Shown here: positions 33,784 to 52,304 of the stretch, in pieces
How positions within the stretch are numbered: the stretch's first letter is position 1
How the letters are laid out: every line of letters starts with the position of its first letter
Source of the DNA: Williamsia serinedens
GTDB lineage: Bacteria; Actinomycetota; Actinomycetes; Mycobacteriales; Mycobacteriaceae
Direction: 5' to 3'
Assembly: GCF_024171725.1 (NCBI RefSeq)
Contig: NZ_JAMTCG010000001.1
Location: 434,001-498,000 of the forward strand
Length of the DNA stretch: 64,000 nt
Made by a program: the position numbers and the translations under genes
Notes under the pieces: generated by a model
What the model saw: only the letters and a program-made list of their open reading frames with translations
What the model was told of the DNA's origin: nothing
The model's database searches: none

Positions 33784-36050
33784 CGACACACGACACCGAG
33801 CACGGCATCGGCAGCTTCGCCGACGTGCCCCTCGCCGACGAGACCACCGACACGGCGACCCCGCCGGGTCCCGGCGACGCCGACGCGCTCGCCGCGGCGG
33901 CCGCGAGCGCGCACGGCTACACCACCGACCAGATCTCGTGGACCACGCCCGAGGGCATCGAGGTGCCGCCGGTGTTCACGCGCGCCCACCGCGACGAGGT
34001 GGCCGCGGAGGGCTTCCCGATCGACACGGTGCCCGGCGCGACGCCGTTCCTGCGCGGGCCGTACCCCACGATGTACGTCAACCAGCCCTGGACGATCCGG
34101 CAGTACGCGGGGTTCTCGACGGCGGCGGAGTCCAACGCGTTCTACCGGCGCAACCTGGCGGCGGGCCAGAAGGGACTGTCGGTCGCGTTCGACCTCGCCA
34201 CCCACCGTGGATACGACTCCGACCACCCGCGCGTCGCCGGTGACGTCGGCATGGCGGGCGTCGCCATCGACTCGATCCTCGACATGCGCCAGCTGTTCGA
34301 CGGGATCGACCTCGGGTCGGTCTCGGTGTCGATGACCATGAACGGCGCGGTGCTGCCGATCCTCGCGCTCTACGTGGTGGCCGCCGAGGAGCAGGGCGTG
34401 CCGCCGGAGAAGCTCGCCGGGACCATCCAGAACGACATCCTCAAGGAGTTCATGGTCCGCAACACCTACATCTACCCGCCCGAACCGTCGGTGCGGATCA
34501 TCTCCGACATCTTCGCCTACACGTCGCAGAGGATGCCGCGGTTCAACTCGATCTCGATCTCCGGCTACCACATCCAGGAGGCCGGGGCCACAGCCGATCT
34601 CGAGCTCGCGTACACCCTCGCCGACGGTGTCGAGTACATCCGGGCCGGTCTCGACGCGGGCCTCGACATCGACAGCTTCGCACCGCGGTTGTCGTTCTTC
34701 TGGGGCATCGGGATGAACTTCTTCATGGAGGTCGCGAAACTGCGTGCCGCTCGGCTCATCTGGAGCGAGCTGGTCGCTCAGTTCTCCCCGCAGAACCCGA
34801 AATCGCTGAGCCTGCGGACGCATTCGCAGACGTCGGGGTGGTCGCTGACAGCGCAGGACCCGTTCAACAACGTCGCCCGCACCTGTGTCGAGGCGATGGC
34901 CGCGACGCAGGGCCACACCCAGTCGCTGCACACCAACGCACTCGACGAGGCGCTCGCGCTGCCGACGGACTTCTCGGCCCGCATCGCCCGCAACACGCAG
35001 CTGCTGCTGCAGCAGGAGTCGGGCACCACCCGTCCGATCGACCCCTGGGGCGGCTCCTACTACGTCGAGTGGCTGACCCACCGGCTCGCCGAGAAGGCCA
35101 GGGCGCACATCGCCGAGGTCACCGAGGCCGGCGGCATGGCCAAGGCGATCAACGAGGGCATCCCGAAGCTGCGCATCGAGGAGGCCGCCGCGCGCACGCA
35201 GGCCCGGATCGACTCCGGCCGCCAGCCGGTGATCGGCGTGAACAAATACCAGGTCGAGTCCGACCAGGAGGTCGAGGTCCTCAAGGTCGAGAACAGCAAG
35301 GTCGCCGCCGAGCAACTCGAGAAGCTCGCCCGGCTGCGGTCCGAGCGGGACGGCGCCGCGGTGGAGCGTGCGCTCGCCGACCTGTCCCGCGCGGCGGCCC
35401 AGACCGGTCGCGGCGGGTCGCTCGACGACAACCTCATGGCGCTGGCCATCGAGGCCGCACGCCGACAGGCGACGGTCGGGGAGATCTCCGAGGCGTTGGA
35501 GAAGGTCTACGGTCGTCACCAGGCGGAGATCCGCACCATCAGCGGGGTATACCGACAGGAGGCCGGCCAGGTGGGCAACATCGACACGGCCACCGCCGTC
35601 GTCCGCGCCTTCGCCGAGGCGGAGGGTCGGCGCCCCCGTGTGCTCATCGCCAAGATGGGCCAGGACGGACACGACCGCGGCCAGAAGGTGATCGCGACCG
35701 CGTTCGCCGATCTCGGCTTCGACGTCGACGTGGGCCCGCTGTTCCAGACCCCCGACGAGGTGGCCCGTCAGGCGGCCGACAACGACGTGCACGTGGTCGG
35801 GGTCAGCTCGCTCGCGGCCGGTCACCTCACCCTGGTGCCCGCCCTGCGGGACGCCCTCGCGGCGGTCGGTCGCGAGGACATCATGATCGTCGTCGGCGGC
35901 GTCATCCCGCCCGGCGACTTCGACGCCCTGTACGCGGCCGGTGCCACGGCGATCTTCCCGCCCGGCACCGTCATCGCCGACAGCGCCGTCGAGCTCGTCA
36001 CCAAGCTCGGGGAGTCCCTGGGCCACGACCTGTCCGCCGCGGCGGGGTAG
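33780..36050 (+). CDS. mutB: Methylmalonyl-CoA mutase large (alpha) subunit
   Basis: The 756-residue catalytic subunit has an N-terminal TIM barrel with substrate motifs ([29 protein letters not shown]) and a C-terminal cobalamin domain with DGHDRG (Dx-His-xxG cobalt ligand), SSLAAGH and GGVIPP. Adenosylcobalamin-dependent. ATG 33780 overlaps the mutA stop (ATGA). Expression is presumably with mutA and meaB. Confidence 0.97.
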
Positions 36051-36061
36051 CCCACACGCCG

Positions 36062-37051
36062 ATGCCCGCACCCCCGATCGACCCCGGTGAGCTCGCCGCT
36101 GCCGTCCGGGCCGGCGACCGCGCCCGTCTCGCCCGCGCGATCACGCTGGTGGAGTCCACGCGTCCGGACCACCGGGCCGCGGCCCAGGAGATGCTGCTCG
36201 AGCTGACCCCGCACGCCGGCGACTCCTACCGCGTCGGTATCACCGGTGTCCCCGGGGTGGGCAAGTCGACGACCATCGAGGCGCTTGGCATGCACCTCAT
36301 CGGTCAGGGTCACCGGGTGGCGGTGCTCGCGGTCGACCCGTCGTCGACGCGCACCGGCGGGTCGATCCTCGGTGACAAGACCCGGATGGGCCGTCTGTCG
36401 GTCCACCCCGACGCCTACATCCGTCCGTCGCCGACGTCGGGGACGCTCGGCGGCGTCGCGAAGGCCACCCGCGAGACGATGGTCGTGCTCGAGGCGGCGG
36501 GCTACGACGTCGTCATCGTGGAGACGGTGGGCGTGGGGCAGTCCGAGGTGACGGTGGCCAACATGGTCGACAGCTTCTGTTTCCTCACCCTTGCCCGCAC
36601 CGGTGACTCCCTGCAGGGCATCAAGAAGGGCGTCCTGGAGCTCGCCGACATCGTCGTGGTGAACAAGGCCGACGGCAAGCACGAACGGGACGCCCGTTCG
36701 GCCGCCCGCGAACTACGTGGCGCCCTGCACCTGCTCTACCCGCACGACGCGCTGTGGCACCCGCCGGTGCTGACGATGAGCGCGCTCGAGGACGTCGGGG
36801 TGACCGAGTTCTGGGACACCGTGATGCAGCACAAGCAGGTTCTCGCCGACGCGGGCGAGTTCGCCGAGCGTCGACGGCGGCAACAGGTCCGGTGGATGTG
36901 GTCGATGGTGACCGACATCCTCACCGACCGCCTCGACACCGATCCCGGTGTGCGCGAGGCACGCCGGCGTGCCGAGGAGGCCGTCCGGTCGGGGGATCTG
37001 ACCCCGGCGCTCGGCGCCCAGCAGATCGTCGAGGCCTTCGACGCGCGTTAA
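36062..37051 (+). CDS. meaB: MeaB/ArgK, G-protein chaperone of methylmalonyl-CoA mutase
   Basis: The 329-residue GTPase loads and protects the cobalamin cofactor of MutAB. It shows the P-loop GVPGVGKST, VDPSSTRTGGSILGDKTRM, the switch ETVGVGQSE and the guanine motif NKAD. It starts 11 bp after mutB. M. tuberculosis has the mazEF4 toxin pair between mutB and meaB; none is here. This is the last gene of the syntenic block. Confidence 0.96.
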   Translation: MPAPPIDPGELAAAVRAGDRARLARAITLVESTRPDHRAAAQEMLLELTPHAGDSYRVGITGVPGVGKSTTIEALGMHLIGQGHRVAVLAVDPSSTRTGGSILGDKTRMGRLSVHPDAYIRPSPTSGTLGGVAKATRETMVVLEAAGYDVVIVETVGVGQSEVTVANMVDSFCFLTLARTGDSLQGIKKGVLELADIVVVNKADGKHERDARSAARELRGALHLLYPHDALWHPPVLTMSALEDVGVTEFWDTVMQHKQVLADAGEFAERRRRQQVRWMWSMVTDILTDRLDTDPGVREARRRAEEAVRSGDLTPALGAQQIVEAFDAR

Positions 37052-37651
37052 TTGAGGCCGCCGACCGAGCGGGCCGCGTGACGTCACCTCCGAGAGCAGC
37101 GTTGACGGTAACTAGACCGAGACGACGGAAGTGCACTGAAAGAGTGCTTAGCAGAGAGCTCCACGTTCGGCGCGCGAATTGAAAGCGAATGCAGTGCAAA
37201 AACTGGCGCGCATTTTAAAGCCGGAGAAAATGCAGATTCGGCTCGCTTTCTGCAACGCAATAAGCAAAGGTAGGCTGCCTTTTCAAGGCCGAGGCCTCTC
37301 CGGGGCGGGAAACCTGTTGAAGTTTTGAGCTCCCGATGCTGCAAGGCCCACGGCTCCCGAACGTTCGACGGTTCACGCCTTGGTTCGGCAAGCTGAAATC
37401 TCCCGCACCTGCGCACCGCCTAGCTCGAAACAACGAGCGGAGATGAACGATGCCGAGTCGCGCGCCTGTAGCTCGAACGTATGAAACTACCTCCGAACAC
37501 AGATGTCAGGCGGTCGCTCAACTCGTCAGCAACGCTTAGTATCCGGATTGCCGAGACAACGACCACAACGGGCTCTAGTGTCAGACCGGTCTGGCACGAG
37601 TTCGCTTGTTGCGGGGTTCGAGGTCCGGTTGAACTCGAAAGGAGGAATCTT
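37052..37651 (+). promoter_or_regulatory. Island left border and upstream region of the RiPP-like operon
   Basis: No convincing gene is present in these 600 bp; the open frames have poor codon bias. GC falls from about 68% just before to 50% in 37,201-37,260 (counted by hand), marking an abrupt compositional border. TAGTAT at 37537-37542 is a possible -10. A near-perfect palindrome at 37578-37597 and a strong ribosome site at 37640-37646 precede the first small ORF. No integrase, tRNA or clear att repeat is seen. Confidence 0.5.
37578..37597. promoter_or_regulatory. 20-bp palindrome upstream of the RiPP-like operon
   Basis: GTGTCAGACC is followed directly by GGTCTGGCAC; nine of ten base pairs are symmetric. 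It lies 54 bp before the first start codon of the operon, a good place for a repressor. No regulator gene lies in the island, so the partner is unknown. Confidence 0.5.
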
Positions 37652-37744
37652 GTGGCGAGGTTTGCCTACGGCCGTCGCGAGCGGCCGACACCTTTGCCCG
37701 TAGAAGGATTTCGCCGAATACGCGTCATGCGTCGCGACCAGTGA
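37652..37744 (+). CDS. 30-residue basic peptide, first gene of the RiPP-like operon
   Basis: GTG 37652 follows one of the strongest Shine-Dalgarno sequences in the window (AAAGGAGGA, about 6 nt spacing). The product is an Arg-rich peptide: MARFAYGRRERPTPL, then PVEGFRRIRVMRRDQ. Its stop overlaps the GTG start of the next gene (GTGA), so it is translationally coupled to the LLM oxidoreductase. I do not recognise the family. It could be a second precursor peptide, a small subunit, or a leader that couples translation. The frame is open upstream to 37481, but only this start has a ribosome site. Confidence 0.55.
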   Translation: MARFAYGRRERPTPLPVEGFRRIRVMRRDQ

Positions 37745-38685
37745 CAGCGATAGCGGCTACTACCCAGGTAAGGGTGGGTCTTGGGCTCGGCCTGGGAGTC
37801 TCCTGGACCTCGAGCGCGGAATTCGCTCAGTTCGCGCGCTCCGCTGAAGCGACAGGTTGGGATTCAATATGGTTGTCTGAACATTTGACCGGACCAACAC
37901 CCGCTGCCCTTCCCGCACTGGCCTACGCGGCTGCCGTCACATCCAACATCCGTCTTGGTACTTCAATAACCGTCGTGCCTGGGCGCAGCCCCGTCGAGCT
38001 TGCGAAGACGTTGTGGACGATTGCAGAGCTATGCGACGGTCGGCTTTTGCCGATCTTTGGGCTCGGAACAGCTGAGGACGCCGAGCACGCCGCTTTCAAT
38101 GTCGGCCGGCGCCACAGGGGTCCATGGTTTGATGCCGCATTGCCCGTTATCCGCGCATTACTTCGCGGGGACCGTGTCACGGCATCCTCGCCATATTTCA
38201 ACATTAGTGACACTTGCGTCACCGATGGTGGGGCGGCCGCGATTTCGGACCTCTGGATGGGTGGACGAAGTCAGACCGAACTGCGTCGCGTCGCCAAGCT
38301 TTCTGATGGCTGGCTTGCCAGCTTCGCCACTCCACTTCAAACGCGCAATTCGATCGCGTTTATTGTCAATCAGGCGGCCGAAATGGGCCGAGAATTTGAC
38401 AAAGAACACTTTGGCCTGCTTCTTCCCTACGGCAGGCTGTCCCGGTCCGCGGCAATCGCCGACTTGCTCGACCACGCATATCCTGGGATCGACCCCGACG
38501 AACTGTGCCCTGTCGGCGTCGATGCTCTGCGTAGGGTGCTTGACGGCCACGCCAAGGCTGGGGTTACGAAGTTCATCCTGGTGCCCGACAATCGGCCTAC
38601 GAACTGGAGCCTCGAACTTAAACTGCTACGTGACGACGTCGTGTCGGCGGCTGCACGGTCAGAAATTGTGAGGTTAGCGGAATGA
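37741..38685 (+). CDS. LLM-class flavin- or F420-dependent oxidoreductase
   Basis: The 314-residue TIM-barrel protein of the luciferase-like monooxygenase superfamily has typical stretches: GWDSIWLSEHLTGPTPAALPALAYAAAVTSNIRLGTSI, then DGRLLPIFGLGT and DLWMGGRSQTELRRVAKLSDGWL. In mycolic-acid actinobacteria most relatives use F420, but the cofactor cannot be settled here. GTG 37741 overlaps the 30-residue ORF, and its stop overlaps the amidohydrolase start (ATGA). Its place in the operon suggests it acts on the modified peptide or a compound derived from it. Confidence 0.82.
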   Translation: MTAIAATTQVRVGLGLGLGVSWTSSAEFAQFARSAEATGWDSIWLSEHLTGPTPAALPALAYAAAVTSNIRLGTSITVVPGRSPVELAKTLWTIAELCDGRLLPIFGLGTAEDAEHAAFNVGRRHRGPWFDAALPVIRALLRGDRVTASSPYFNISDTCVTDGGAAAISDLWMGGRSQTELRRVAKLSDGWLASFATPLQTRNSIAFIVNQAAEMGREFDKEHFGLLLPYGRLSRSAAIADLLDHAYPGIDPDELCPVGVDALRRVLDGHAKAGVTKFILVPDNRPTNWSLELKLLRDDVVSAAARSEIVRLAE

Positions 38686-39932
38686 GCACGAAGGCAACAA
38701 AACTTCCGATAATTGATGCCGATGCGCATGTAGTCGAGCCTTTCGATCTCTGGTCCGAGCGGATGCCGGCCGAGTTCCAGCACCTGGTCTGGCGACGCGA
38801 ACTTGACGACGACGGCCGCGAGCGGCTGTATTACGACGGCGAGTTGCTGAACATCGAATGGTCCACCGGCACGCTGAGCACACCGGGGGCCGTGCAGGAG
38901 GGCGGCCGGCTCGACATCGACATCGAGACCGAGGTCGACGAGGGGGTGCGCGATCCGCACCGTCGGCTGGCACTGATGGATGAACAGGGCATTGCGGTCA
39001 GCGTGCTCTTCCCGTCGATGATGCTCGGACTATCCGACATGCGTGAGGATCGGATTCAGGTCGCTTACGCACGCGTGTACAACGACTGGGTCGCCGAACT
39101 CTGCTCGACAAATCCGTTGCGGCTCAAATGGGGCGCGGTGATTCCGGCCGGGGATATACCCGCTGCCGTAATAGAGGCAGAGCGTGCCATATCGGCCGGG
39201 GCACAGGCGGTAATGGTGCCTCCCATCTTCAACAAGCAGCATCTTTCGGTGGCCGATCCGGCGCTGGATGGACTGCACGGTCTGCTGGCCGAGGCGGGCG
39301 TGCCGCTCGTCGTACACGCGGTCAATCCCCACAATCGCTGCCTGTCGATTTACCCGCACTTGCGAGGTCGCGTTCAGTGGCAAATGGGCTACTCGTTTCA
39401 AAATCAGCTTGCGACAATGCACGTGCTCGACTCGGACCTGTTCGTCCGGCATCCGCGGTTGCGGATCGGGTTCTTCGAGGGCGATGTCGGTTGGGTGCCT
39501 CACTGGTTCAGCCGGCTCGACTTGACGCTCGCCAAGATGGCTTTAGTCGCAACACGGCGGGAGACGCCCGTCGTCAATGCATTTTTGCGCAACTGCGTGA
39601 TGTCGGGCGATATGAACGATCCCCAATTGGCCGCTGCGGTGGACTATCTCGGATTGGGCGGCGTGTTGTTCGCCTCCGACTGGCCCCACCACGACGGCAC
39701 CTGGCCGGACCCGATTGTCGCCATCCGCGAACACTCTGGGCTGACAGACGCGCAGAAGCGCGACTTGTTGGTCGATGCCCCAGCCAACTTTTTTGGCATT
39801 AACATCCCCGAGCTACTCGCCCGACTGCCCTCCGAGTGGAGCCTTGACGCTCCGCTCGCTACGATCCCGCCGCTCTTGCGGCAAGGGCGGGGCCCCGCCA
39901 TCGATGCCGTGACTACCGCGGCAACACTTTGA
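38682..39932 (+). CDS. Amidohydrolase family 2 protein (ACMSD-like)
   Basis: The 416-residue metal-dependent TIM-barrel enzyme is related to aminocarboxymuconate-semialdehyde decarboxylase. Metal ligands are visible: DADAHVVEP near residue 12 (D-x-H), the His in LVVHAVNPHN, and Asp in FASDWPHHDG. It should catalyse hydrolysis or decarboxylation of a small carboxylate; the substrate is unknown. It is chained to the LLM gene by ATGA. A 94-bp gap with an AT-rich stretch (CAGTAATTAG) separates it from the precursor gene. Confidence 0.85.
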   Translation: MSTKATKLPIIDADAHVVEPFDLWSERMPAEFQHLVWRRELDDDGRERLYYDGELLNIEWSTGTLSTPGAVQEGGRLDIDIETEVDEGVRDPHRRLALMDEQGIAVSVLFPSMMLGLSDMREDRIQVAYARVYNDWVAELCSTNPLRLKWGAVIPAGDIPAAVIEAERAISAGAQAVMVPPIFNKQHLSVADPALDGLHGLLAEAGVPLVVHAVNPHNRCLSIYPHLRGRVQWQMGYSFQNQLATMHVLDSDLFVRHPRLRIGFFEGDVGWVPHWFSRLDLTLAKMALVATRRETPVVNAFLRNCVMSGDMNDPQLAAAVDYLGLGGVLFASDWPHHDGTWPDPIVAIREHSGLTDAQKRDLLVDAPANFFGINIPELLARLPSEWSLDAPLATIPPLLRQGRGPAIDAVTTAATL

Positions 39933-40026
39933 CCGTCCGACGAGAGGATCACCCGCTATCCCGCCATTTGCCTTCCGTTCAGTCATCTGACCTAGTAGCG
40001 CAGTAATTAGACCTTCAGAGGAGATC

Positions 40027-40203
40027 ATGTCCATCAAGACCGGAGGATCGCTCAGCGACCTTTCTCGGACCGAAGCCGCGGACTCCATCGCCAGAACCGG
40101 CGAATCCGCGCTGGCGTTAGCGCTGCGGCGGGCGCGTGAAGACGATACGGACTCGCGCTCGCAGCACCACAGCTACAACAGCCACTCGTCGCACCCTTGG
40201 TGA
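40027..40203 (+). CDS. Candidate RiPP precursor peptide with aromatic-x-Ser core
   Basis: The 58-residue peptide has a hydrophilic leader (about 1-45, with an amphipathic stretch ESALALALRRARED) and a C-terminal core, HHSYNSHSSHPW (residues 47-58). The core reads as four in-phase triplets, HHS-YNS-HSS-HPW, each starting with an aromatic residue and three ending in Ser. FxsB-type radical SAM enzymes link an aromatic residue to the residue two places on, so the core has the expected substrate form. ATG 40027 has AGAGGAG just upstream (short 3-nt spacing). The stop overlaps the first radical SAM gene (GTGA). Confidence 0.8.
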   Translation: MSIKTGGSLSDLSRTEAADSIARTGESALALALRRAREDDTDSRSQHHSYNSHSSHPW

Positions 40204-41447
40204 CAAACACGTTTCTCGGTACGCCGTCGGCGGCCATCAGGACTGCGCCGGAATGGCCGTCGGCGGCGCACTTCGACATCCCCACGATGCTCGCTGAAGG
40301 GTGGCGGTCCAGTCCCTTCACGGAGTTCGTGGTCAAGATCGCCAGTCGCTGCAATCTCGACTGCGACTACTGCTACATGTATCACGCGGCCGACCAGAGC
40401 TGGCGTTCGCAACCCAAGCTGATGAGCTTCGAGAACATCGGCTTGCTCGGCGAGCGCATCGCCCAACACGCGGAAACCCATTCGCTCACCCGCGTCGGCG
40501 TGTCCCTTCACGGCGGGGAACCCCTGCTAGCGGGAGCCGACTACGTCACCCGGTTCGCCGAGCTGATGAGGTCGAAGCTGGACGGGCAGTGCGAAATGTC
40601 GCTGGTGTGCCAATCCAACGCCACGCTCATTACCGTCGATCTGGCGCACGCGTTGCAGCGCAACGAGATTCGAGTCGGAGTGAGCCTGGACGGCGATCGC
40701 GCGGCGAACGATCGCCACCGGCGGTATCGGGACGGCCGGTCGAGCTTCGACGCGGTACTGAAGGGGATCGAGACCCTGCGTAGCGTCGACGAGCAGCTAT
40801 TCTCCGGCATTCTGACCACGATCGACGTCCGCAACGATCCGGTCGCTACGTACGAGCAGATCGTCGCGCTGGACGTCGAACACTGCGATCTGCTTTTCCC
40901 CCACGCCAATTGGACCACGCCACCGCCGGCGAAGGGAAGCGAATCCACCACGCCGTACTCGGACTGGCTTATTCCGATCTTCGATCTCTGGTACCACCAG
41001 CCTCGACAACCGTTGAAATTGAGGATCTTTCGCGACATAATGAACCTTCTGCTCGGCGGCGTTGGCGGGTTCGAGATGGTCGGTCACGGACCGGTGACGT
41101 TAATAAGCATCGAGACGGATGGGTCAATCGAGCTCGTCGACACCCTCAAGACGACGTACGAGGGCGCTGCGAGCACATGTCTGACGCTGCGTGAATCGAC
41201 ACTTGATGCCGCGCTAGTGCATCCCGGGGTGGTGGCCCGGCAGATTGGACTCGATGCCCTGGCGCCGTCGTGTCTCGCGTGTAGATTTCGGGACGTTTGC
41301 GGTGGGGGAATGTACACCCACCGCTACCGGGCGGGTAGCGGCTTTAAGAACCCCAGCGTCTATTGCTCCGACTTATACAAGTTAATCGACCACATCGCAA
41401 CCACCCTCGAGGCGGATCTCGTGGCCCTGAACAGGGCAGTCCAATGA
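40200..41447 (+). CDS. FxsB-like radical SAM/SPASM peptide maturase
   Basis: The 415-residue enzyme probably installs crosslinks on the preceding peptide. The radical SAM cluster motif is C51-x3-C55-x2-C58 (CNLDCDYC), preceded by FTEFVVKIASR and followed by YMYHAADQSW and VSLHGGEPLL, all typical of FxsB. The SPASM region has C358-x2-C361-x5-C367 in the stretch CRFRDVCGGGMYTHRYRAG, then NPSVYCSDL. GTG 40200 overlaps the precursor stop. Known FxsB relatives form three-residue cyclophanes; that this one does so is inference. Confidence 0.9.
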   Translation: MTNTFLGTPSAAIRTAPEWPSAAHFDIPTMLAEGWRSSPFTEFVVKIASRCNLDCDYCYMYHAADQSWRSQPKLMSFENIGLLGERIAQHAETHSLTRVGVSLHGGEPLLAGADYVTRFAELMRSKLDGQCEMSLVCQSNATLITVDLAHALQRNEIRVGVSLDGDRAANDRHRRYRDGRSSFDAVLKGIETLRSVDEQLFSGILTTIDVRNDPVATYEQIVALDVEHCDLLFPHANWTTPPPAKGSESTTPYSDWLIPIFDLWYHQPRQPLKLRIFRDIMNLLLGGVGGFEMVGHGPVTLISIETDGSIELVDTLKTTYEGAASTCLTLRESTLDAALVHPGVVARQIGLDALAPSCLACRFRDVCGGGMYTHRYRAGSGFKNPSVYCSDLYKLIDHIATTLEADLVALNRAVQ

Positions 41448-42478
41448 CAGCCTTCGGCGCCAACGCGCAGATCATGATCACCGAACGGTGCAATCTCAAA
41501 TGTGTCCACTGTGCAGTGCCGGAGGAGAGCTCGCCTGCTGATACCGAGTTGACCACCGCTGAGTGGGGCGACTTCATCAAGCTCATCGCCGAGGGCGGCG
41601 TTGAAGCGTTGACCATCTCCGGGGGCGAGGCGACTCTGCGTGACGACGCTCCGTTGCTGCTCGAAGCCGCCGCCGCCGCACGTATCCCGCGGGTGACTCT
41701 GTTGACCAATGGGCTGCTCCGCAACTCAGTGATCACTGAACTCGTCGCCGTGCAACGACGCCATTCCAACGTCGGGATCCACGTCAGCCTAGATGGGGCC
41801 TCTACTGCTACCCACGACGTCATCCGTGGGCGTGGGACGTTTCGCGCGACCATGACCAGGATCGAGAGCCTGCGCGCCGCAGGTGGTGTCATCACTGGTG
41901 TGCACACGGTGCTGCACCGGGACAATGTCGACGAGTTCGAGGCGATAGTTGCGATGGTGTCTGAACTTGGCGCCTCCGTGTGGACCATTTTCCCCGTAGC
42001 AGCCCTGGGCCGCGCGCAGCAGAGCGCACTCACCAGCTTGACCGCGGAGCAGTGGGCAGACGTCACGGCACGGCTGGCACACGTAAGGAACGCCCTTGGT
42101 ATCGACGTGGGACAGATGGGGCCTGTACTCAACGACGACTGGCCGGCCGATGCCTCCATCACACCGCGGGGGCGGAGCGAAGCCAGTAGCAACGTCGTAG
42201 TGGGTCCCGACGGCGCCATCTTCACGTGTCCACCGCTGCGCGATCACCTGATGGGCGACGTGCGCACCCAACGCACGGTCGACGACTGGCGTATCGCGCT
42301 GCAGATGGGCGAGGAGCTCACCGAATCAGTCTGTCGGAAATGTCAATTTAGGCTGCTGTGCACGGGTATCGATCCCGACCGACCGTTCCGTACAGTCGAC
42401 ACGCCGGAGTGGTCTGGGCGTCCAGACGAGATCCTGGCGCGACAGCCATCCATGACGAACTTGAGCGGAGGACACTGA
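41444..42478 (+). CDS. Second radical SAM enzyme of the peptide operon
   Basis: The 344-residue radical SAM protein has the cluster motif in ITERCNLKCVHC (about residues 15-22), SAM-binding TISGGEATL, VSLDGAS and a C-terminal part with FTCPP and SVCRKCQFRLLC. The latter looks like a short SPASM or twitch domain. It may modify the same peptide at another site. ATG 41444 overlaps the first radical SAM stop (ATGA). A precise subfamily cannot be given. Confidence 0.85.
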   Translation: MTAFGANAQIMITERCNLKCVHCAVPEESSPADTELTTAEWGDFIKLIAEGGVEALTISGGEATLRDDAPLLLEAAAAARIPRVTLLTNGLLRNSVITELVAVQRRHSNVGIHVSLDGASTATHDVIRGRGTFRATMTRIESLRAAGGVITGVHTVLHRDNVDEFEAIVAMVSELGASVWTIFPVAALGRAQQSALTSLTAEQWADVTARLAHVRNALGIDVGQMGPVLNDDWPADASITPRGRSEASSNVVVGPDGAIFTCPPLRDHLMGDVRTQRTVDDWRIALQMGEELTESVCRKCQFRLLCTGIDPDRPFRTVDTPEWSGRPDEILARQPSMTNLSGGH

Positions 42479-43977
42479 TGCCGGTATGGATTGATCCGGC
42501 GCATCCGTTGTCCCCTTGGCGCGCAGCAGTAGTTACCGATTTGCCGACGTCCGGAGCGGTGAGCGCAGCGCACTTGCACTGGCGCGCCGTCGACGACTTC
42601 TGGTTCGCGATCTCGGATCGCACCGGCGGTTGGGTGATGGCTACCAATGACGAGCGCCACGGAATTTGCTCCGCGCTCGACCGGGATGTCAGTGATGTCG
42701 AACGAGCCTCACTCGTGCGCGACTTCTGGCGGCGCGGCCTCGTCGAGGTCGATGGTCGAAACGTGGTCGAGGGCGCGGACTGGTCGGCCGCGATTGACGA
42801 AACCCGTTCCTACTACGGTCTGGTGCTAATCCTAAATTCCGGGTGCAACCTCGCGTGCACCTACTGCTACCTCGGACACTCAGCACCCGACCGGCGCAAC
42901 GACATCGACCTCAACATCGCCCAAACCACGATCCTCGCCGCACTAGATCGCCCAGAAACGCAGGTCATCCTGGATTTTGGCGAAGTAGCGGCGGCCACCG
43001 CGCTGTTCTACGAACTCGCGACCTTCGCCGAGCGGTCGGCCGCGACGCTCGGAAAAAAGCTCCGCATCGCGATCCAGACAAACGCCACGACGCTCAACGA
43101 TCGGCTAGTCGACTTCCTCGTCGAACGCGACGCCATCTTGGGGGTCAGCCTTGATGGCCCGCATGACATCCACGACAAGGCCCGGCCCACCCGCAGCGGC
43201 CGCGGTTCACACCGCACCGCCGTCGAGGCGCTGAAACGCTGTCGCGCAGCCGGTCTCGATTTCCACCTGATCGTAACCGTGGGCGCGCACAACGTCGGCT
43301 CGGCGTCCCGCGTGCTCGACGAGATCGCATCCATGGCGCCGAAGACATTCCTCTGCAAGCCGATCTTGGCTCACGGCGAGGCCAGTACCAGCTGGGACGA
43401 CGTAGGTGCCAATAGCGACGACATTGCGGCTTTCCTCGCCAACTCGGTGCGCCGCGCCGCCCACGACGGGCTAGAAATGCTCGACCAGTCGGCTACGAAG
43501 TTCCTCAGCCGGATGATCGGAGAATCAAGCGGGTGGCGCGAATCATGTACGTCCCGAGACTGTGGTTCCGGCCGAAACATGCACGTACTCAGTGCCCGCG
43601 GGGAACTACACGCCTGCCCACGGTTCGTCGAGCCCGGTAAGGGTCGCCTCGCGACACCGAAAACCGTCGAGCTAGTGCTGCAGCGCAAGATCGACCTCGT
43701 CGGCGACGAGCTTCACCGGCAGCCGGAGACTTGCAAGGGGTGCCCGTGGTTGCGCAGTTGCGGCGGCGGATGCACTCTATCGGGCGACCCGGACTTCACG
43801 CCGCTCCCGGACCCACACTGCGCCTCGTACATGGCGCAGCACGAGGCGCTCGTCGATCACATTCTGCCGGAACTCATTTCTGGTCGGCTGCCCATTGACG
43901 GGCCATTGGCCGGTGGGCGGATTCGGGTCAGCAGCGAGGATGTGGCACCTACCCCGGTGCGCCAGTCGCAGTCTTAG
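42478..43977 (+). CDS. Third radical SAM/SPASM enzyme, with an RRE-like N-terminal domain
   Basis: The 499-residue enzyme has a radical SAM motif C-N-L-A-C-T-Y-C (about residues 122-129) and a full SPASM region (CTSRDCGSG ... ACPRF ... TCKGCPWLRSCGGGC ... PHCASY). The first 100 residues (FWFAISDRTGGWVMAT ... SLVRDFWRRGLVEVDG) have the strand-helix pattern of a PqqD-like recognition element that could bind the leader peptide; this is inference. Its start (TGATG) overlaps the previous stop by one base. It ends the operon, 9 bp from a convergent gene. Confidence 0.85.
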   Translation: MPVWIDPAHPLSPWRAAVVTDLPTSGAVSAAHLHWRAVDDFWFAISDRTGGWVMATNDERHGICSALDRDVSDVERASLVRDFWRRGLVEVDGRNVVEGADWSAAIDETRSYYGLVLILNSGCNLACTYCYLGHSAPDRRNDIDLNIAQTTILAALDRPETQVILDFGEVAAATALFYELATFAERSAATLGKKLRIAIQTNATTLNDRLVDFLVERDAILGVSLDGPHDIHDKARPTRSGRGSHRTAVEALKRCRAAGLDFHLIVTVGAHNVGSASRVLDEIASMAPKTFLCKPILAHGEASTSWDDVGANSDDIAAFLANSVRRAAHDGLEMLDQSATKFLSRMIGESSGWRESCTSRDCGSGRNMHVLSARGELHACPRFVEPGKGRLATPKTVELVLQRKIDLVGDELHRQPETCKGCPWLRSCGGGCTLSGDPDFTPLPDPHCASYMAQHEALVDHILPELISGRLPIDGPLAGGRIRVSSEDVAPTPVRQSQS

Positions 43978-43986
43978 GCCGCCGCG

Positions 43987-44778
43987 CTACCAGGACGCCC
44001 CAAGGGTCTCGCTAGGCGGGTCCGGCGAGGGTTTCGGGCTGGCGTCGGTGAGTACGTCCGCGGCTTCGCATATTGAGTCGAGTCGGGCTGCCGTACACCG
44101 AACGTAGCCGGAATCGACAGTAGTCACCGTGCTCAGTACATCCTCGGTAAGTGCGTCGCCGCGCGTACACAGCAGTGTGTAGTTGCCGAAGTACGGGTGG
44201 TGTGGCGACATTACAGTCATCCGCAGCGGGGTCGCGGCACGAATGGTGGCGCACACCCTAGCGACGTATTGCATGTCCGGATGGTCGATCAGCCCGTAGA
44301 CCAGAATGCCTTCGTCACGCAGCGCGCAATTGAGCCGAGTCACGCACTCCGCCGTGGTGAGATCCTCCGGAACATGGCCCCCCGCAAAGGCGTCTACCAC
44401 AATGAGGTCGGCCGAATTGGCTGGTAGTTCCTCGATGACCGGCCTGCCAAGCTCGTGTCGCAGCGTCAGTTTGGCGTCAGCAGGGAAGGAGACCCGTGCC
44501 AGCACCGCCTCAGTCATTGCCCTGTTGGGTTCCACAATCAGCTGCCTAGAGGCCGGATGGGCGTAGGCGAAGTAGCGGGCGAGCACCATACCCCCGCCGC
44601 CTATGTGTACGACATCAAGCGCAGCGGGTCTCTGATGATCGAACGCCGCAGCGATGTGGCGGAGGTACCCCCACGACAATTCATATGGATTCTGGACGAC
44701 TATCCTTGATTGCGCGGCACGCCCAACAAACACCAGAAGAGCATCGCCATCGTGCTCGATTGTAAAGTTCTCATGCAT
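43987..44778 (-). CDS. Spermidine-synthase-fold methyltransferase-like protein
   Basis: The 263-residue Rossmann protein has VVHIGGGGMVLARYF (nucleotide loop), IVEPNRAMTEAV, and VVDAFAGGHVPEDLTTAECVTRLNCAL, typical of spermidine-synthase-like proteins. Without a membrane domain or clear polyamine residues, the reaction is unknown; aminopropyl or methyl transfer to a peptide is possible. ATG 44778 has AAGGTG 7 nt upstream. It is convergent with the third radical SAM gene and may belong to the system. Confidence 0.8.
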   Translation of the reverse strand: MHENFTIEHDGDALLVFVGRAAQSRIVVQNPYELSWGYLRHIAAAFDHQRPAALDVVHIGGGGMVLARYFAYAHPASRQLIVEPNRAMTEAVLARVSFPADAKLTLRHELGRPVIEELPANSADLIVVDAFAGGHVPEDLTTAECVTRLNCALRDEGILVYGLIDHPDMQYVARVCATIRAATPLRMTVMSPHHPYFGNYTLLCTRGDALTEDVLSTVTTVDSGYVRCTAARLDSICEAADVLTDASPKPSPDPPSETLGASW

Positions 44779-45430
44779 AAGTGCACCTTAGTGTCCCAAC
44801 TGCGGTAGGACTCCGAGTGAGCCTGGGAAAACTGATCAAATGAGATGTTCAACTGTCGAGACGAGCGGCGGCGCCCTCTGTAGTACTTAGACCGCCGAGA
44901 CGGCATGCATATATAGGAGGAGTCGATCGCAGTAGATATCGGCCGCAGGCCGTGCGCGGTCCACACCGTACGCAGCGGCTTCGCGAAAATCGGCGACTGT
45001 CACCGCGGATACCTAGACGCAGTCGGGCATCCATTGCGGTCAATAGCTGGCGCGTAGAACTTGACCACAGAACATGACGGCTAAAGACCCGGCCTGACCT
45101 AATGCAGAATAGAGCGGGTAACCGCGCTGTAGACACAGCACCAAATCGATAATCGAACCTTGCAAACTTCGTGGCATCCGCGTCTCGAAATCAAGCAAAC
45201 CCTATACCCTCAGTCGGCCATCGCCACGGGATCGGTCGATGTCGGACACCGATAAGTCAATCCGTACGGTCGAAAACCCTGATCGACTATACGGGATCGG
45301 AAGTGCACCTATTCCGCATCCGACATGCTTGCACCATACCTTGAATTCCTCCGCCGCCCATCGGCATCATTCTGGTGGTTGCGGCACTGCAAAAACTAGT
45401 TGCTCGGCTCCTCTGCCCGCAAGCAGCCGG
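44779..45430. other. Low-GC intergenic stretch without a supported gene
   Basis: Open frames of 85-95 codons on both strands lack ribosome sites or codon bias. A 16-codon frame on the minus strand (about 45,327-45,277 downward) has GGAGG 10 nt upstream and gives MVQACRMRNRCTSDPV, too short to call. GC is 53% in 45,241-45,300 by hand count. Several AT-rich boxes may hold promoters, but none can be assigned. Confidence 0.4.
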
Positions 45431-46465
45431 TCACGAGCAAGCGGCCCGAGCGTCTTCGACGGCCGCCTCGGCCAGTTCCTCGCCCGCACTCGTTAATACG
45501 CCTGCTGCCAGCACTGCGGTCGCCGACTGGAGTACCTGGTTGGCGCGCCGCGAGATGAGTTCGTTCGCACGAGTCGATGCAACGCTGCGAGTCTTGCTTA
45601 GGTGAATCCAGAATCTCATTACGGCACTGAACGCAACGATTCCGTGCAGAACGGCCCGTGTCGGTCGCGTCGCCCCCTTCCATGGCGCATAAAACTCAGC
45701 TTCATTCTCAAGTTCGAACTCGCAGAGCTCTAGCGCCATGTTGAACAGGCTGTGATACGATTCGTGAACCATTGCTTCGGCGAAGCTAACGCGGTCCCAT
45801 GTACCGGGCGAAATATAGGCCATACCGACGGCGTCAGTCAGCGATCCACTCTCGATCTCGAACTTGCTGGTGCGGCCATAAGCCTTCCCGTCGCGCTGGA
45901 GAAGCGGCACTACAACTGTGGTGAGAGCCGTCGCATTAATGAAGTCGCGGTTGTCGAGCTCAGCGATCAAAGCGGCCGAGTCGCTAACCAGTGCACGCCA
46001 CTCACCGGTGATGTTGGGGTCCACGTGATCTGACCACGCGTTGAATGCCGGCTCGATGTTGTTCAGCTCGAATCCGTTGACCACTTCGAGCGCACGCATT
46101 GTTTTGGCCGAGTGATCCCACACCGATGCGGTCCCTGGAAGATGAACGCCCCCGGCCGTAAGGACACCGCGACTGCGCAGCGCGGCGATTGCGCCGACCT
46201 CGTCACCGGCGAGTAGCTGAAGTGCGGCTACGACAGGCGCCCAGTGCTTTGGTGCGGCCGACCCTGCTCTAGCCATAGATCCCACCGCAGGATGGGAAAA
46301 AACCTTCCGAATTGCCTCCGGTGGCGCGAGTTGAGATTCAGGCAACGGCGAAGCCGCACCGTACGTTTCGAGTCTTAAAGCGAATTCTCGCTCCGCCCAC
46401 GCGACGCGCACAGGTTCGGGGTCGATTCGGCCCAACAGAGCAGGCACAAGATTCGTCAATGCCAT
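45431..46465 (-). CDS. HExxH-type peptide beta-hydroxylase-like enzyme
   Basis: The 344-residue protein has MVHESYHSLFN (HExxH) at about residue 250 and, 30 residues on, the conserved APWKGATRPTRAVLHGIVAF. This is the signature of the HEXXH family found beside FxsB-type systems. Some members are alpha-ketoglutarate-dependent hydroxylases acting on ribosomal peptides. ATG 46465 has AAAGGG 9 nt upstream; GTG 46492 is an alternative. It is transcribed away from a divergent LLM oxidoreductase gene. It strongly supports a peptide-modification role for the island. Confidence 0.82.
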   Translation of the reverse strand: MALTNLVPALLGRIDPEPVRVAWAEREFALRLETYGAASPLPESQLAPPEAIRKVFSHPAVGSMARAGSAAPKHWAPVVAALQLLAGDEVGAIAALRSRGVLTAGGVHLPGTASVWDHSAKTMRALEVVNGFELNNIEPAFNAWSDHVDPNITGEWRALVSDSAALIAELDNRDFINATALTTVVVPLLQRDGKAYGRTSKFEIESGSLTDAVGMAYISPGTWDRVSFAEAMVHESYHSLFNMALELCEFELENEAEFYAPWKGATRPTRAVLHGIVAFSAVMRFWIHLSKTRSVASTRANELISRRANQVLQSATAVLAAGVLTSAGEELAEAAVEDARAACS

Positions 46466-46572
46466 GCTCAGCGGCCCTTTAGTCGTTGCCACGTGGCCAG
46501 CGTAGCGGCGGCCTGCGTTTGTCGATGACCAAATGGGGCAGCGGTCGGGCCAATCGACGATACGGTCACGCG

Positions 46573-47436
46573 ATGGACTTGGGGCTGCACTACCACGACT
46601 TCCTCTCCTTCCCGCCCGAGCGGATCGGTACGACGATAGCCGCCACGGCTCGTGCGGCCGAGGACGTCGGCTTTACACTGTTCACCGTCGCCGACCACAT
46701 GTTCCAGATGGAAATGATCGGCAGGGCCGAGGACCCGTTTTTGGAGAGCTACACCACCTTGGGCTTCCTCGCGGGGCAGACCAAGAGCATCACTCTGGCC
46801 GCGCTTGTCACTGCGGTGACATATCGGCATCCCGGGGTTCTAGTCAAGGCCATGACCACTTTGGACGTGCTTGCCGAGGGTAGAACAATACTTGGTCTCG
46901 GCGCCGCGTGGTATCAGCGCGAGCACGACGCGCTCGGGATTCCGTTTCCGCCAGCTGCAATCCGACTCGAGCGTTTGGAGGAGACGCTGCGTATCTGTAG
47001 GCAGATGTGGAGCGATGACCATGATGGGCCGTTCGAAGGCAAACACTTCCGACTTGCCGAGACGATCTGCCAACCACAGCCGTTGCGACCACCCCCAATC
47101 CTTATCGGTGGCTCAGGCGAGCGCCGACTGCTCCGGATTGTGGCCCAGTATGCCGACATATGGAACACCACAGATGGCCTCAGTCGGCTCCCCGGTAAGG
47201 TCGAAGTCCTTCGCAGGCACTGCGCGAGTGTCGATCGCGACTTTTCCCAGATCCGCCTGACGGCCTCTACTTTCGTCGATCCATTTTCAAACGTCGATGT
47301 GTTCTTGCGCCTGGTAGACAGCTATGCTGAGCTTGGCTTTACTTTGTTAACGGTAGGACCACTCCCAGGACGCACCGACCCTGTCGGATTCGTTGAGCGT
47401 TTCGGCGAAGATATTCTTCCTCGGATTTCTGACTGA
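46573..47436 (+). CDS. Second LLM-class F420/flavin-dependent oxidoreductase
   Basis: The 287-residue luciferase-like protein has DLGLHYHDFLSFPPERIGTT at the N-terminus, GFTLFTVADHM, VTAVTYRHPGVLVKAMTTLDVLAEGRTILGLGAAWYQREHDALGIPFP and PPILIGGSGERRLLRIVAQYADIWN. This resembles F420-dependent members. ATG 46573 lies 6 nt after TACGGT (46561-46566), so a leaderless start is likely; a longer frame to 46486 lacks support. It is divergent from the HExxH gene and only distantly similar to the first LLM protein. Confidence 0.85.
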   Translation: MDLGLHYHDFLSFPPERIGTTIAATARAAEDVGFTLFTVADHMFQMEMIGRAEDPFLESYTTLGFLAGQTKSITLAALVTAVTYRHPGVLVKAMTTLDVLAEGRTILGLGAAWYQREHDALGIPFPPAAIRLERLEETLRICRQMWSDDHDGPFEGKHFRLAETICQPQPLRPPPILIGGSGERRLLRIVAQYADIWNTTDGLSRLPGKVEVLRRHCASVDRDFSQIRLTASTFVDPFSNVDVFLRLVDSYAELGFTLLTVGPLPGRTDPVGFVERFGEDILPRISD

Positions 47437-47713
47437 AGTCCCGATTGAGTGATTGGGCTCGACATAATTCCAGCTTAACTGCCGGCAGGGCTATCGGAGG
47501 GTCCAGTTTTCCAAACGTGGGTTCGCGCTTAGACACTTCGACTCTCAAGAATCTCGGGTAGCGTCGTCCGGCCTAGCGGCAAAATCACCACTGTGAGGAC
47601 ACGGCAGCAGTGCATTTTTCTGTCGGTAACCACTACGCAACACCCGGACCGCTTACTGGGTAGACGCACACATCGTGGTGTGTGCTCCCGTCCCCCAGCA
47701 GCAGGAGAGTGCG
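47437..47713 (+). promoter_or_regulatory. Upstream region of the Nit1C cluster and right border of the island
   Basis: No gene is seen. Composition returns to high GC near 47,640. A GlnR-type box lies at 47626-47641, and AGGAGAG precedes ATG 47714. A -10 is not clear; TAGACG at 47661-47666 is the nearest candidate. Confidence 0.45.
47626..47641 (+). promoter_or_regulatory. GlnR-type nitrogen-control box
   Basis: GTAAC-CACTAC-GCAAC matches GTnAC-N6-GnAAC, the actinobacterial GlnR consensus as I recall it, including AC-N9-AC spacing. It lies 72 bp before the nitrilase start. Nit1C genes are induced by nitrogen starvation in other bacteria, so the site makes sense. Only one half-pair is clear. 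Confidence 0.55.
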
Positions 47714-48610: not shown

Positions 48611-48917
48611 GATGACCGTGACCGTCCGCTGGCCGGACGGCACCCGCGACGACTGCTACTCGCCGAGCCTGGTGATGCACGATCACCTGCGCGCCGGCAC
48701 CGACTACACGGTGGCCGACTTCACCGACCGGGCGACGGTGGCCCTGGGGGAGGCGGCCGAGCGCGTTCGCGCCCGGTACGGGTTCGCGTGCACGTCGGCC
48801 ATGGCCTCCGCGGAGCACATCCGCACCCGCGCGGAGCGGTTCGCCTCCGACGCGACCGTCACCGTCGTGGCGATGGAACCGCCGCTGCCGGCGACGGTCC
48901 CCGGAGCCACCCGATGA
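48603..48917 (+). CDS. nitG: NitG, MSMEG_0570-type nitrogen starvation response protein
   Basis: The 104-residue protein begins MPEMTVTVRWPDG and has CYSPSLVMHDHLRAGTDYTVADF, characteristic of the family. Biochemical role unknown. It overlaps nitC by 8 bp and nitH by 4 bp (ATGA), so it is translated within the cluster. The assignment rests on sequence resemblance and neighbours. Confidence 0.82.
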   Translation: MPEMTVTVRWPDGTRDDCYSPSLVMHDHLRAGTDYTVADFTDRATVALGEAAERVRARYGFACTSAMASAEHIRTRAERFASDATVTVVAMEPPLPATVPGATR

Positions 48918-50191
48918 GCGCCCACGTCCCCGTCGCCGTCGTCGGCGGCGGGCAGGCGGGGCTCGCCGTCAGCTGGTACCTCGCCGAGTCCGGTGTCGAC
49001 CACGTGGTCCTCGAGGCGCAGACCCCGATGCACCACTGGTCGGACACCCGCTGGGACGCCTTCACCCTCGTCACCCCGAACTGGCACTGCCGCCTGCCGG
49101 GCCACCCGTACGACGGGGACGACCCCGACGGCTTCATGACCCGCGACGAGGTCGTCGCCTGGCTCGACCGCTGGCTCGAGGACTTCCACCCACCGCTGCG
49201 CACCCACACGCGTGCCACCCGGCTCAAGCACGCCCCGGACGGCGGATGGGAACTCACCGTCGTCCCGGACGGCGGGGAGCCGCAGACGCTCACCTGCGAC
49301 GAGGTGGTCGTCGCGACAGGCGGCTACCAGGTGCCGATCATCCCGCCGTACGCCGCACGCATCCCGGCCAGGATCGAACAGATCCACTCCGCCCAGTACC
49401 GCAACCCCGAGCAGCTGCCCGACGGCGCGGTGCTGGTCGTCGGGACCGGTCAGTCCGGTGCGCAGATCGCCGAGGACCTGCACCTCGCCGGGCGGACCGT
49501 GCACCTGGCGGTCGGCGGCGCCCCGCGCGTCGCGCGGTCCTACCGGGGACGCGACGTGATGACGTGGCTCGCCGACATGGGCCTCTACGACACCCCGGTC
49601 GCCCAGTACCCGGGTGGCGCGCCCGCACGGGAGAAGACCAACCACTACGTCACCGGCCGGGACGGCGGGCGCGACATCGACCTGCGTGCCTTCGCCCGCG
49701 AGGGCATGCAGCTGCACGGACAGCTCGTCGACTGTGACGGCGCGGCACTGCGATTCGCACCGACGCTCGCCGCGGCCCTGGACGCCGCCGACGCCGTCTA
49801 CAACTCGATCTGCGCCGACATCGACCGCCACATCGAGCGCGAGGGCCTCGACGCCCCACCGCCGTCGCGGTACGAGCCCGTGTGGCGGCCCGAGACCGAA
49901 CCCACCGAGGTCGACCTCGCGTCGGCAGGCATCACCTCGGTGGTGTGGGCCATCGGGTACCGCCCCGACTGGTCGTGGATCGAGGCCAGCGCCTTCGACG
50001 GGGCCGGTCGGCCGATGCAGACGCGCGGCATCAGCGAGGTGCCCGGCCTGAGCTTTGTCGGGCTCCCGTGGATGCACACCTGGGGATCGGGCCGGTTCAT
50101 CGGGATCGACACCGACGCGCGTCATGTCGCCGACGTCGTCGCGCGGCGGGTCGGCGTCGCCGGCGGGCTCCGGCTGGCCGCCTCGGGGTGA
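48914..50191 (+). CDS. nitH: NitH, MSMEG_0569-type flavin-dependent monooxygenase
   Basis: The 425-residue FAD protein resembles Baeyer-Villiger/N-hydroxylating monooxygenases. It has FAD loop VVGGGQAGLAVSWYL, NAD(P) loop VVGTGQSGAQIAEDL and ATGGYQVP, plus VVWAIGYRPDWSWIE near the C-terminus. It may oxidise an amine or small nitrogen compound feeding the nitrilase. It overlaps nitG by 4 bp and is followed 3 bp later by the AMP-binding gene. Confidence 0.87.
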   Translation: MSAHVPVAVVGGGQAGLAVSWYLAESGVDHVVLEAQTPMHHWSDTRWDAFTLVTPNWHCRLPGHPYDGDDPDGFMTRDEVVAWLDRWLEDFHPPLRTHTRATRLKHAPDGGWELTVVPDGGEPQTLTCDEVVVATGGYQVPIIPPYAARIPARIEQIHSAQYRNPEQLPDGAVLVVGTGQSGAQIAEDLHLAGRTVHLAVGGAPRVARSYRGRDVMTWLADMGLYDTPVAQYPGGAPAREKTNHYVTGRDGGRDIDLRAFAREGMQLHGQLVDCDGAALRFAPTLAAALDAADAVYNSICADIDRHIEREGLDAPPPSRYEPVWRPETEPTEVDLASAGITSVVWAIGYRPDWSWIEASAFDGAGRPMQTRGISEVPGLSFVGLPWMHTWGSGRFIGIDTDARHVADVVARRVGVAGGLRLAASG

Positions 50192-50194
50192 CGG

Positions 50195-51610: not shown

Positions 51611-51660
51611 CGACGACGACCGTGTGCGCCGCATGAAACCCGGTCGCAACACACGGATGT

Positions 51661-51675
51661 CGCTGTAACACAGCG
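51661..51675 (+). promoter_or_regulatory. Small inverted repeat upstream of nitB
   Basis: CGCTGT-AAC-ACAGCG is a perfect 6-bp stem in the 168-bp gap before nitB, the longest gap inside the cluster. It contains GTAAC, half of a GlnR site. It may be an operator or a weak RNA hairpin. Confidence 0.35.
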
Positions 51676-51778
51676 TTGTTCCGCACCGAACCACCGCGCA
51701 ACGCGACCACCGTTGACTGGTCCCCACCAGAGCCGGATCCCCGGTTCTCGGTCCGACACTCTCCTCCCGGAGGATCCC

Positions 51779-52303
51779 ATGTCCGAGATCGACGACGCCA
51801 TCGCCGCCAACATCGCCACCTCGCTCGCCGAGATCCCGCACCCCTCGCTGCCGAAGGGCTCGAACATCTACGGCGGCACCAAGTTGTTCCCCGACTACCA
51901 GGCCGAGGACGGCGAGACGTACTTCACCCTCGTGCACGGTATCGCGCACGAGTCGTCGGTGAGCTTCGTCGCCGTGCTGCAGGCCACACGCGCCCTGCGC
52001 AAGGGCTTCGAGTCCGCGATCTACTTCTACGGGCCCGGCGCCATCAACTGCCTGGCCACCCGCGGTTTCCCGACCACCGGCGACAGCGGCTTCCCGGGCG
52101 AGCAGAACATCAACAACTCGCTCGAGACGTTCATCGGCGAGGGCGGCACCGTCTACTGCTGCCGCTTCGGGCTCGCACTGCACGGTGGCCGCGAGGAGGA
52201 TCTCATCGCCGGCGTGATCCCCGCGCACCCGCTCGACGTGCAGGACGCGATCATCCATTACGCACGCAAGGGCGCCATCATCAACTCCACGTACATGGTG
52301 TGA
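51779..52303 (+). CDS. nitB: NitB, MSMEG_0572/Sll0783-type nitrogen starvation protein
   Basis: The 174-residue protein has the conserved NIYGGTKLFPDYQ, FYGPGAINCLATRGFPTTGDSGFPGEQNIN and EGGTVYCCRFGLALHG stretches. In Synechocystis, Sll0783 is induced by nitrogen starvation and is needed for polyhydroxybutyrate accumulation; its chemistry is unknown to me. ATG 51779 has GGAGGA about 5 nt upstream. Followed by nitD 1 bp after the stop. Confidence 0.88.
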   Translation: MSEIDDAIAANIATSLAEIPHPSLPKGSNIYGGTKLFPDYQAEDGETYFTLVHGIAHESSVSFVAVLQATRALRKGFESAIYFYGPGAINCLATRGFPTTGDSGFPGEQNINNSLETFIGEGGTVYCCRFGLALHGGREEDLIAGVIPAHPLDVQDAIIHYARKGAIINSTYMV

Positions 52304-52304
52304 G

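Follow-up and report, generated by a model that had tools for sequence, protein, structure and literature searches.

In a 64,000-nucleotide stretch of the Williamsia serinedens genome (contig NZ_JAMTCG010000001.1, positions 434,001 to 498,000; hereafter the window, numbered from its first letter) we find a gene for a short peptide with aromatic-x-Ser triplets, followed by three coupled genes for radical S-adenosylmethionine (SAM) enzymes, here called RS1, RS2 and RS3, and then by a gene for a putative HExxH-type peptide hydroxylase. It is likely that these genes make up a pathway for a ribosomally synthesised and post-translationally modified peptide (RiPP), a candidate of the triceptide kind to which two radical SAM maturases have been added. 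The precursor, the similarity of its leader to those of other systems, the family of RS1, the HExxH gene, the coupling of the genes and the island in which they lie can all be read from the DNA. The original prediction, made from the same stretch, had recognised the precursor, the FxsB-like maturase and the unusual layout, and in these it stands; its view of His as an unusual aromatic partner is not borne out, and it passed over the HExxH gene, which depends on alpha-ketoglutarate (alpha-KG), and the island.

The precursor peptide

The open reading frame (ORF) at 40027..40203 on the + strand translates into the 58 aa peptide MSIKTGGSLSDLSRTEAADSIARTGESALALALRRAREDDTDSRSQHHSYNSHSSHPW, with a leader containing RTGESALALALRR and a C-terminal core, QHHSYNSHSSHPW, that reads HHS-YNS-HSS-HPW in phase, as had been predicted. 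A Shine-Dalgarno-like AGAGGAG is found 5' of the ORF. Of the 460 window ORFs of 25-150 aa, no other shows three or more successive in-phase triplets at the C-terminus that open with F, W, Y or H. Its own run counts four, and runs of two such triplets were seen in six ORFs. YNS, HHS and HSS are aromatic-x-Ser triplets of the sort that mark an FxsB-type system.

A leader profile was built from an alignment of nine small ORFs located 5' of FxsB-type genes in other records, the window precursor itself being excluded. With this profile the precursor scored 15.8 bits, a value somewhat favoured by the nine seed rows having been picked by eye, two of them (from the FxsB loci L029 and L070) after a resemblance was noticed; it ranked first of the 460 ORFs, the next reaching 3.5 bits, and shuffling the precursor 5000 times gave 11.2 bits at most. 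When the profile was iterated to 40 rows, the score was 14.4 bits. What the leaders have in common is a helix-like stretch such as RTGES.LA.ALRR, and the closest one by eye belongs to Embleya sp. NBC_00888, whose peptide ends in GYNSFVGGE. In an alignment of eight precursors the YNS of the window peptide falls on FNS, FQS, YNS, HTS, HNS and FEA of the others. A precursor search of 101 relatives gave, besides the peptide itself, two weak matches (E 0.002 and 0.003), and none were found in the plasmid collection.

It could be argued that the ORF is untranslated and its triplets accidental, as it is seen in a single genome and no sigma-70-like promoter was detected in 39800-40026. The only two promoter-like sites in 39800-44100 are both within genes, 0.9 being expected by chance, and no terminator-like site was detected in that region. 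The leader similarity, the unique triplet run, the Shine-Dalgarno sequence and the stop/start overlap with RS1 make this explanation scarcely conceivable, and the 58-codon ORF is on these grounds a credible precursor.

The FxsB-family maturase and the coupling of the genes

RS1 (40200..41447, + strand, 415 aa) overlaps the precursor gene by GTGA (40200-40203), RS1 and RS2 share ATGA (41444-41447), and RS2 and RS3 share TGATG (42476-42480); these overlaps had been pointed out before and are seen in the sequence, and all three proteins match Pfam Radical_SAM above its cut-off. Judged by the family models RS1 is an FxsB-family cyclophane-forming (triceptide) radical SAM/SPASM maturase. It passes the FxsB model TIGR04269 with 442 bits (cut-off 370), stays below the cut-off of the YhhB model (361 against 445 bits), and its nearest PDB chain is 9gm3, the radical SAM domain of ChlB (E 1.6e-73). 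Together with the first rank of the leader, this bears out the pairing of an FxsB-like maturase with the precursor, and the (i, i+2) crosslink chemistry that had been proposed fits the family. RS1 would be expected to make (i, i+2) aryl to C-beta bonds on YNS, HHS and HSS.

Of 394 genomes sampled from the class, the own genome counted, 79 encode FxsB-like proteins (E up to 1e-70); in seven congeners none was found at 1e-30. In a tree of 69 rows RS1 was paired with the enzyme of locus L070, with a value of 94 in the Shimodaira-Hasegawa-like approximate likelihood ratio test (SH-aLRT), and the pair was seen again in a tree of 37 rows, from which 32 had been dropped to thin crowded groups (bootstrap 87, SH-aLRT 92). 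The L070 enzyme is likely the sister of RS1, with moderate support only because the RS1 branch is long. For L068, another locus with an FxsB near RS1 in the trees, the leader profile gave no precursor.

A putative hydroxylase partner

The gene at 45431..46492 on the - strand encodes a 353 aa protein of the alpha-KG-HExxH-type peptide beta-hydroxylases. Its translation has the motif HESYH, it passes TIGR04267 (95.4 bits, cut-off 40), and the nearest PDB chain is 8s5f, ChlH (E 1.2e-6). His is a reported target of ChlH. We compared the window with 108 loci, mostly about 7 kb to each side and some ended by the contig, around 109 FxsB places. With three query proteins an HExxH homologue, fused or separate, was found within 4 kb of 90 of the 109 places, and with the window's own query alone at 70. 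Within 68 of the loci searched, the best match to the window protein is the HExxH protein of L070. We take the gene to be the partner that had been overlooked.

Two further radical SAM enzymes

RS2 (41444..42478, + strand, 344 aa) is an orphan radical SAM protein with a partial C-terminal Cys cluster. It has 88.6 bits to PF04055 and begins at its barrel, with no N-terminal domain. None of the best 25 NCBIfam models listed is at its cut-off, the best being TIGR04053 (108 against 395 bits), and the best PDB match is SkfB; the likeness to SkfB, PqqE and AhbD-type proteins is similarly weak for each. RS3 (42478..43977, + strand, 499 aa) is an orphan radical SAM/SPASM protein that is extended at its N-terminus by about 115 residues and has 58.9 bits to PF04055; again none of the best 25 NCBIfam models listed reached its cut-off. 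It has CX3CX2C and the full SPASM pattern (CX12GX4C, CX2CX5CX3C), and FGEV at the position where an alignment places GGEP in HxsB and in a Paracoccus yeei protein, its best match in the plasmid collection (26.5% identity over 76%).

Relatives of the two enzymes were sought in overlapping draws of genomes, which are samples and in which the own genome is counted. RS3 found no other genome among 394 of the class at 1e-40 or among 239 of the order at 1e-25. At 1e-12 it was matched in 15 of 227 genomes of the phylum, own included, the best of the others at E 4.4e-22 and 26% identity; the surroundings of three of these 14 relatives lacked a His-rich precursor by eye, and one of the three adjoins sulfatase-like genes. 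A scan of genome contigs, which requires exact 8-residue patterns that distant relatives may escape, matched RS3 to a single metagenome-assembled genome, of Chloroflexota, over 71 residues (33%). RS2 found no other genome among 301 of the family at 1e-25 and nothing in the plasmid collection at 1e-20, and viral scans yielded no relatives of RS2 or RS3. It appears that the pair of RS2 and RS3 is what is new here, a close relative of neither being present in the collections sampled.

The same picture emerged from the FxsB loci. The 108 loci were searched with tblastn at 1e-3, only matches overlapping FxsB being set aside, and homologues of RS2, RS3, HxsB, HxsC and the Paracoccus enzyme outside the FxsB genes were found in 0 of 108. 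The window served as positive control; the same queries recovered all three of its genes, and the Paracoccus query alone found all three. The exceptions in the 108 loci are a B12-type radical SAM gene in L070 and two FxsB genes in L090. A motif scan of 66 loci, blind to the altered motif of RS3, agreed in finding no second SPASM type. The cassettes of these loci thus share the trait of lacking a second SPASM-type radical SAM family, which belongs to no curated definition known to us, and the window departs from it. Its layout is therefore unlike that of the FxsB loci examined, in line with what had been claimed for FxsA/FxsB.

Since FxsB systems evidently do not need RS2 or RS3 homologues, the product of RS1 and the HExxH enzyme could conceivably be a plain FxsB triceptide. 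RS2 and RS3 would then be riders that turn over a different substrate or carry out a small-molecule reaction, and would have nothing but the transcript in common with RS1. RS2 is indeed as like heme, PQQ and MoaA-type proteins as it is like peptide maturases. However, the stop/start overlaps, which tie RS2 and RS3 to RS1, make the three genes look like one translational unit, the best models for RS3 are peptide or protein maturases, and no other small ORF of the island with at least two aromatic-x-Ser motifs looked precursor-like by eye. We find riders unlikely.

Another explanation is that RS2 and RS3 are mutually dependent, or that a catalytically dead RS3 assists RS2 by binding the leader or by providing a scaffold. 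The long N-terminal extension of RS3 beside an RS2 without an N-terminal domain would agree with this, as would the altered FGEV motif. On the other hand, RS3 has kept CX3CX2C and the full SPASM pattern, and its structure as predicted from three window sequences (mean predicted local distance difference test score 37.7) is too poor to reveal a leader-binding fold. We regard such a division of work as doubtful.

The proposed pathway

If the genes do form one triceptide pathway, the leader helix around RTGESALALALRR would dock RS1, which would abstract a beta-hydrogen from the Ser that closes a triplet. The beta-carbon of this Ser would then be bonded to the ring of the residue that opens the triplet, which is Tyr in YNS and His in HHS and HSS. 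Each ring would cost 2 Da, and up to three could be formed. The HExxH enzyme would then beta-hydroxylate residues of the cyclised core, adding 16 Da each. We infer every one of these reactions, and for RS2 and RS3 our guess is that, coupled behind RS1, they act on the same core with further crosslinks or oxidations, most plausibly at the His triplets and the terminal HPW.

Several points weigh against this proposal. The HExxH gene lies 1.45 kb past RS3 and is read from the opposite strand, and 19 of the 109 FxsB places have no HExxH homologue within 4 kb, among them all six loci with a YVHNSG-type core. HPW is not, to our knowledge, a triceptide motif. With FGEV in place of GGEP, RS3 could be impaired as an enzyme, and anaerobic sulfatase maturases score 96.7 bits for it, not far from the 127 bits of the Paracoccus protein. 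The placement of RS1 next to L070 was never starred in the trees, where the branches are long. The original prediction had suggested looking for the same three genes beside homologous precursors in other genomes, and in the collections sampled a second genome with the RS1-RS2-RS3 trio was not found.

We nevertheless prefer the triceptide pathway with added maturases, and it can be taken one step further, in a version that we hold tentatively and rate at somewhat under an even chance. A single core of 13 residues would be modified by three different SPASM-type enzymes one after another, each with its own triplet or bond type. The result would be a chain of neighbouring three-residue rings that runs through His, Tyr and the terminal His-Pro-Trp and is further hydroxylated by the HExxH enzyme. 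RS2 and RS3 would then each be the founder of a new maturase family. RS3, whose SAM-binding motif is altered, would be connected by its Paracoccus relative with a broader and as yet undescribed class of His-x-Asn/Ser radical SAM peptides. If RS2 and RS3 do act on the precursor, the locus would be a compact five-gene test system for how several radical SAM enzymes share a short core and in which order, and it would add two maturase families that are still uncharacterised.

The island and its surroundings

The RiPP genes are part of an inserted island of about 10.5 kb (37048..47586), which also carries genes for an amidohydrolase and for two LLM oxidoreductases of the F420 type, which we do not number among the parts of the pathway; these flank the RiPP genes, at 37741-39932 and 46486-47436. 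Three congeners were aligned at the site. G005 matches up to 37047 and resumes at 47587, with 31 bp in between, G003 has 188 bp there, and G006 has 1.7 kb of other sequence. The distance from the methylmalonyl-CoA mutase gene (33780-36050) to the gene of a flavin adenine dinucleotide (FAD) protein (48788-50191) is 12.7 kb here as compared to 2.2-3.9 kb in all seven congeners, and the GC content of 37741-47436 is 61.3%, against 69.5% for the whole window. There is no tRNA at either edge.

The first LLM gene and the amidohydrolase gene share a 4-base overlap. A match to the island amidohydrolase was found in none of the seven congeners at 1e-60 and in none of 68 FxsB loci. Between RS3 and the HExxH gene, at 43987..44778 on the - strand, is a gene for a 263 aa spermidine-synthase-like protein (NF037959, 53.5 bits, cut-off 40), whose role in the pathway is uncertain and which had no tblastn match at 1e-3 in the 108 FxsB loci.

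Beyond the island, at 48788-55741, genes for the FAD protein, an AMP-ligase, a radical SAM protein, a GNAT-AIRS fusion and a carbon-nitrogen hydrolase stand in a row, which we take to resemble the MSMEG_0568-type nitrilase cluster. The FAD gene of this row has homologues in all seven congeners.

Comparison with known systems

The nearest system is FxsA/FxsB (TIGR04269), the MscB-type three-residue cyclophane-forming enzymes (3-CyFEs) of actinobacteria, with which the window has in common the maturase family, the leader type, the position of the aromatic-x-Ser triplet and a nearby HExxH gene. It differs in having a His-rich core with four triplets where theirs is AGF[NQ]S, in the two additional radical SAM genes, and in the HExxH gene being on the other strand. 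The nearest solved relatives of RS1 and the HExxH protein are ChlB and ChlH of Chlorogloeopsis, a cyclophane synthase and an alpha-KG-HExxH hydroxylase; the comparison covers the enzymes, and the accessible part of the description mentions no further radical SAM enzyme.

The original prediction held that His as the main aromatic residue was unusual. His triplets are not new, because HaaB, ScaB and YhhB have been reported to crosslink His (PMC11002830, in the part available) and because His-x-Ser cores are found at FxsB loci. Such cores occur at seven or more of the 108 loci, a lower bound, since the profile named a precursor at 48 of the 109 FxsB places. Six are of the related YVHNSG/YAHNSG type (L086, L099, L101, L104, L105 and L106), and one is that of L070, SAHTSTTHNSSFSQGTW, with HTS, HNS and a terminal W. 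The 3-CyFE bonds given in the same part of PMC11002830 are C4(Phe)-Cb(Ser), C2(His)-Cb(Ala or Arg) and C3(Tyr)-Cb(Arg or Asp). HaaA/HaaB, ScaB and YhhA/YhhB are thus like the window in using His, for YhhB also Tyr, as aromatic partner in (i, i+2) bonds, but the partner residue reported in that part is Ala or Arg and not Ser, and the HaaB and YhhB rows of the tree were not paired with RS1.

Among the FxsB loci L070 (genome G206) resembles the window in its HTS/HNS core and its terminal W, and it has the likely sister of RS1 and the best HExxH match of the 68 loci searched. Its second radical SAM gene is unlike RS2 and RS3; the B12-type protein it encodes is near RiPP C-methyltransferases. The locus as a whole reads as a core of the form HTS..HNS..FSQGTW, an HExxH homologue, the B12-type radical SAM gene and a carbamoyltransferase gene.

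The His-x-Ser core and more than one radical SAM enzyme are also found in the His-Xaa-Ser (Hxs) systems, and one could read the peptide as an HxsA-like precursor, RS3 as HxsB and RS2 as HxsC. The precursor has 21.7 bits to HxsA2 (NF038296), RS3 94.3 bits to HxsB over residues 32-380, and RS2 71.4 bits to HxsC, but the cut-offs of 48, 370 and 267.9 bits are far away, and the HxsA model was not among the precursor matches at E 0.01. Compared directly with the proteins of Rhizobium tumorigenes, RS3 is 22% identical to HxsB over 203 residues and RS2 22% to HxsC over 237, and the HxsA of that species is a long peptide of 210 residues with a HASHASHAS run and, by eye, a secreted-type start. Membership of the Hxs systems, suggested by the core and the weak matches, was rejected on this comparison of HxsA, HxsB and HxsC, and we consider an Hxs locus very improbable. 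As a wider family, HxsA2 is matched at E up to 0.1 in 12 of 296 genomes of the phylum, own included, none over the cut-off. On the R. tumorigenes plasmid pRt1078 (L035, 9553-18792) yhhA-yhhB and hxsB-hxsC-hxsA are near one another on one strand, an example of how maturases of the cyclophane and the Hxs kind can occur close together.

Mycofactocin was rejected as well, RS2 having 83.9 bits to MftC (cut-off 265) and the precursor ending in HPW, not VY. MftA ends in VY, as do the mycofactocin-like peptides of the own genome. These belong to two loci about 22 kb apart (C4, at about 490110 and 512357; L003 and L002, named by eye), their peptides each end in IDGMCGVY, and their MftC-like proteins are 83% identical. 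The claim that the layout resembles neither mycofactocin nor Hxs is thus upheld by the cut-offs.

Several radical SAM enzymes act on one precursor in polytheonamide and bottromycin, and three of them are therefore not unheard of among RiPPs at large. Titles and abstract openings of the triceptide and radical SAM literature describe no FxsB locus to which a second and a third SPASM enzyme have been added, which is weak evidence of absence as key subscription papers are outside that sample. A biosynthetic gene cluster of Mucilaginibacter lappiensis, likened here by its description only, resembles the window in combining a His-Xaa-Ser peptide with two radical SAM enzymes unrelated to HxsB and HxsC; unlike the window it has five other precursors and a lantibiotic-dehydratase-like gene (PMC9062424, in the part available).

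The closest parallel to RS3 is the RiPP-like locus L139 on the Paracoccus yeei plasmid NZ_CP020441.2 (6201-11090), which also encodes hypothetical proteins. Its precursor has 208 residues with HVN/HAN repeats of HVNSGPPGFVNGGGHANFDP and is one gene away from the radical SAM/SPASM gene, directly behind which comes the gene of an HExxH protein that scores 90 bits with TIGR04267, above the cut-off. Unlike the window it has one radical SAM gene in the cluster, the distant relative of RS3 described above; the peaAB genes are a few kb away, and peaB serves another system. The arrangement gives a hint that the substrate of the Paracoccus enzyme, which would act together with an HExxH enzyme, is probably the His-x-Asn repeats. 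It also points to a group of His-x-Asn/Ser peptides with HExxH partners that may extend beyond the named Haa, Yhh and Hxs types.

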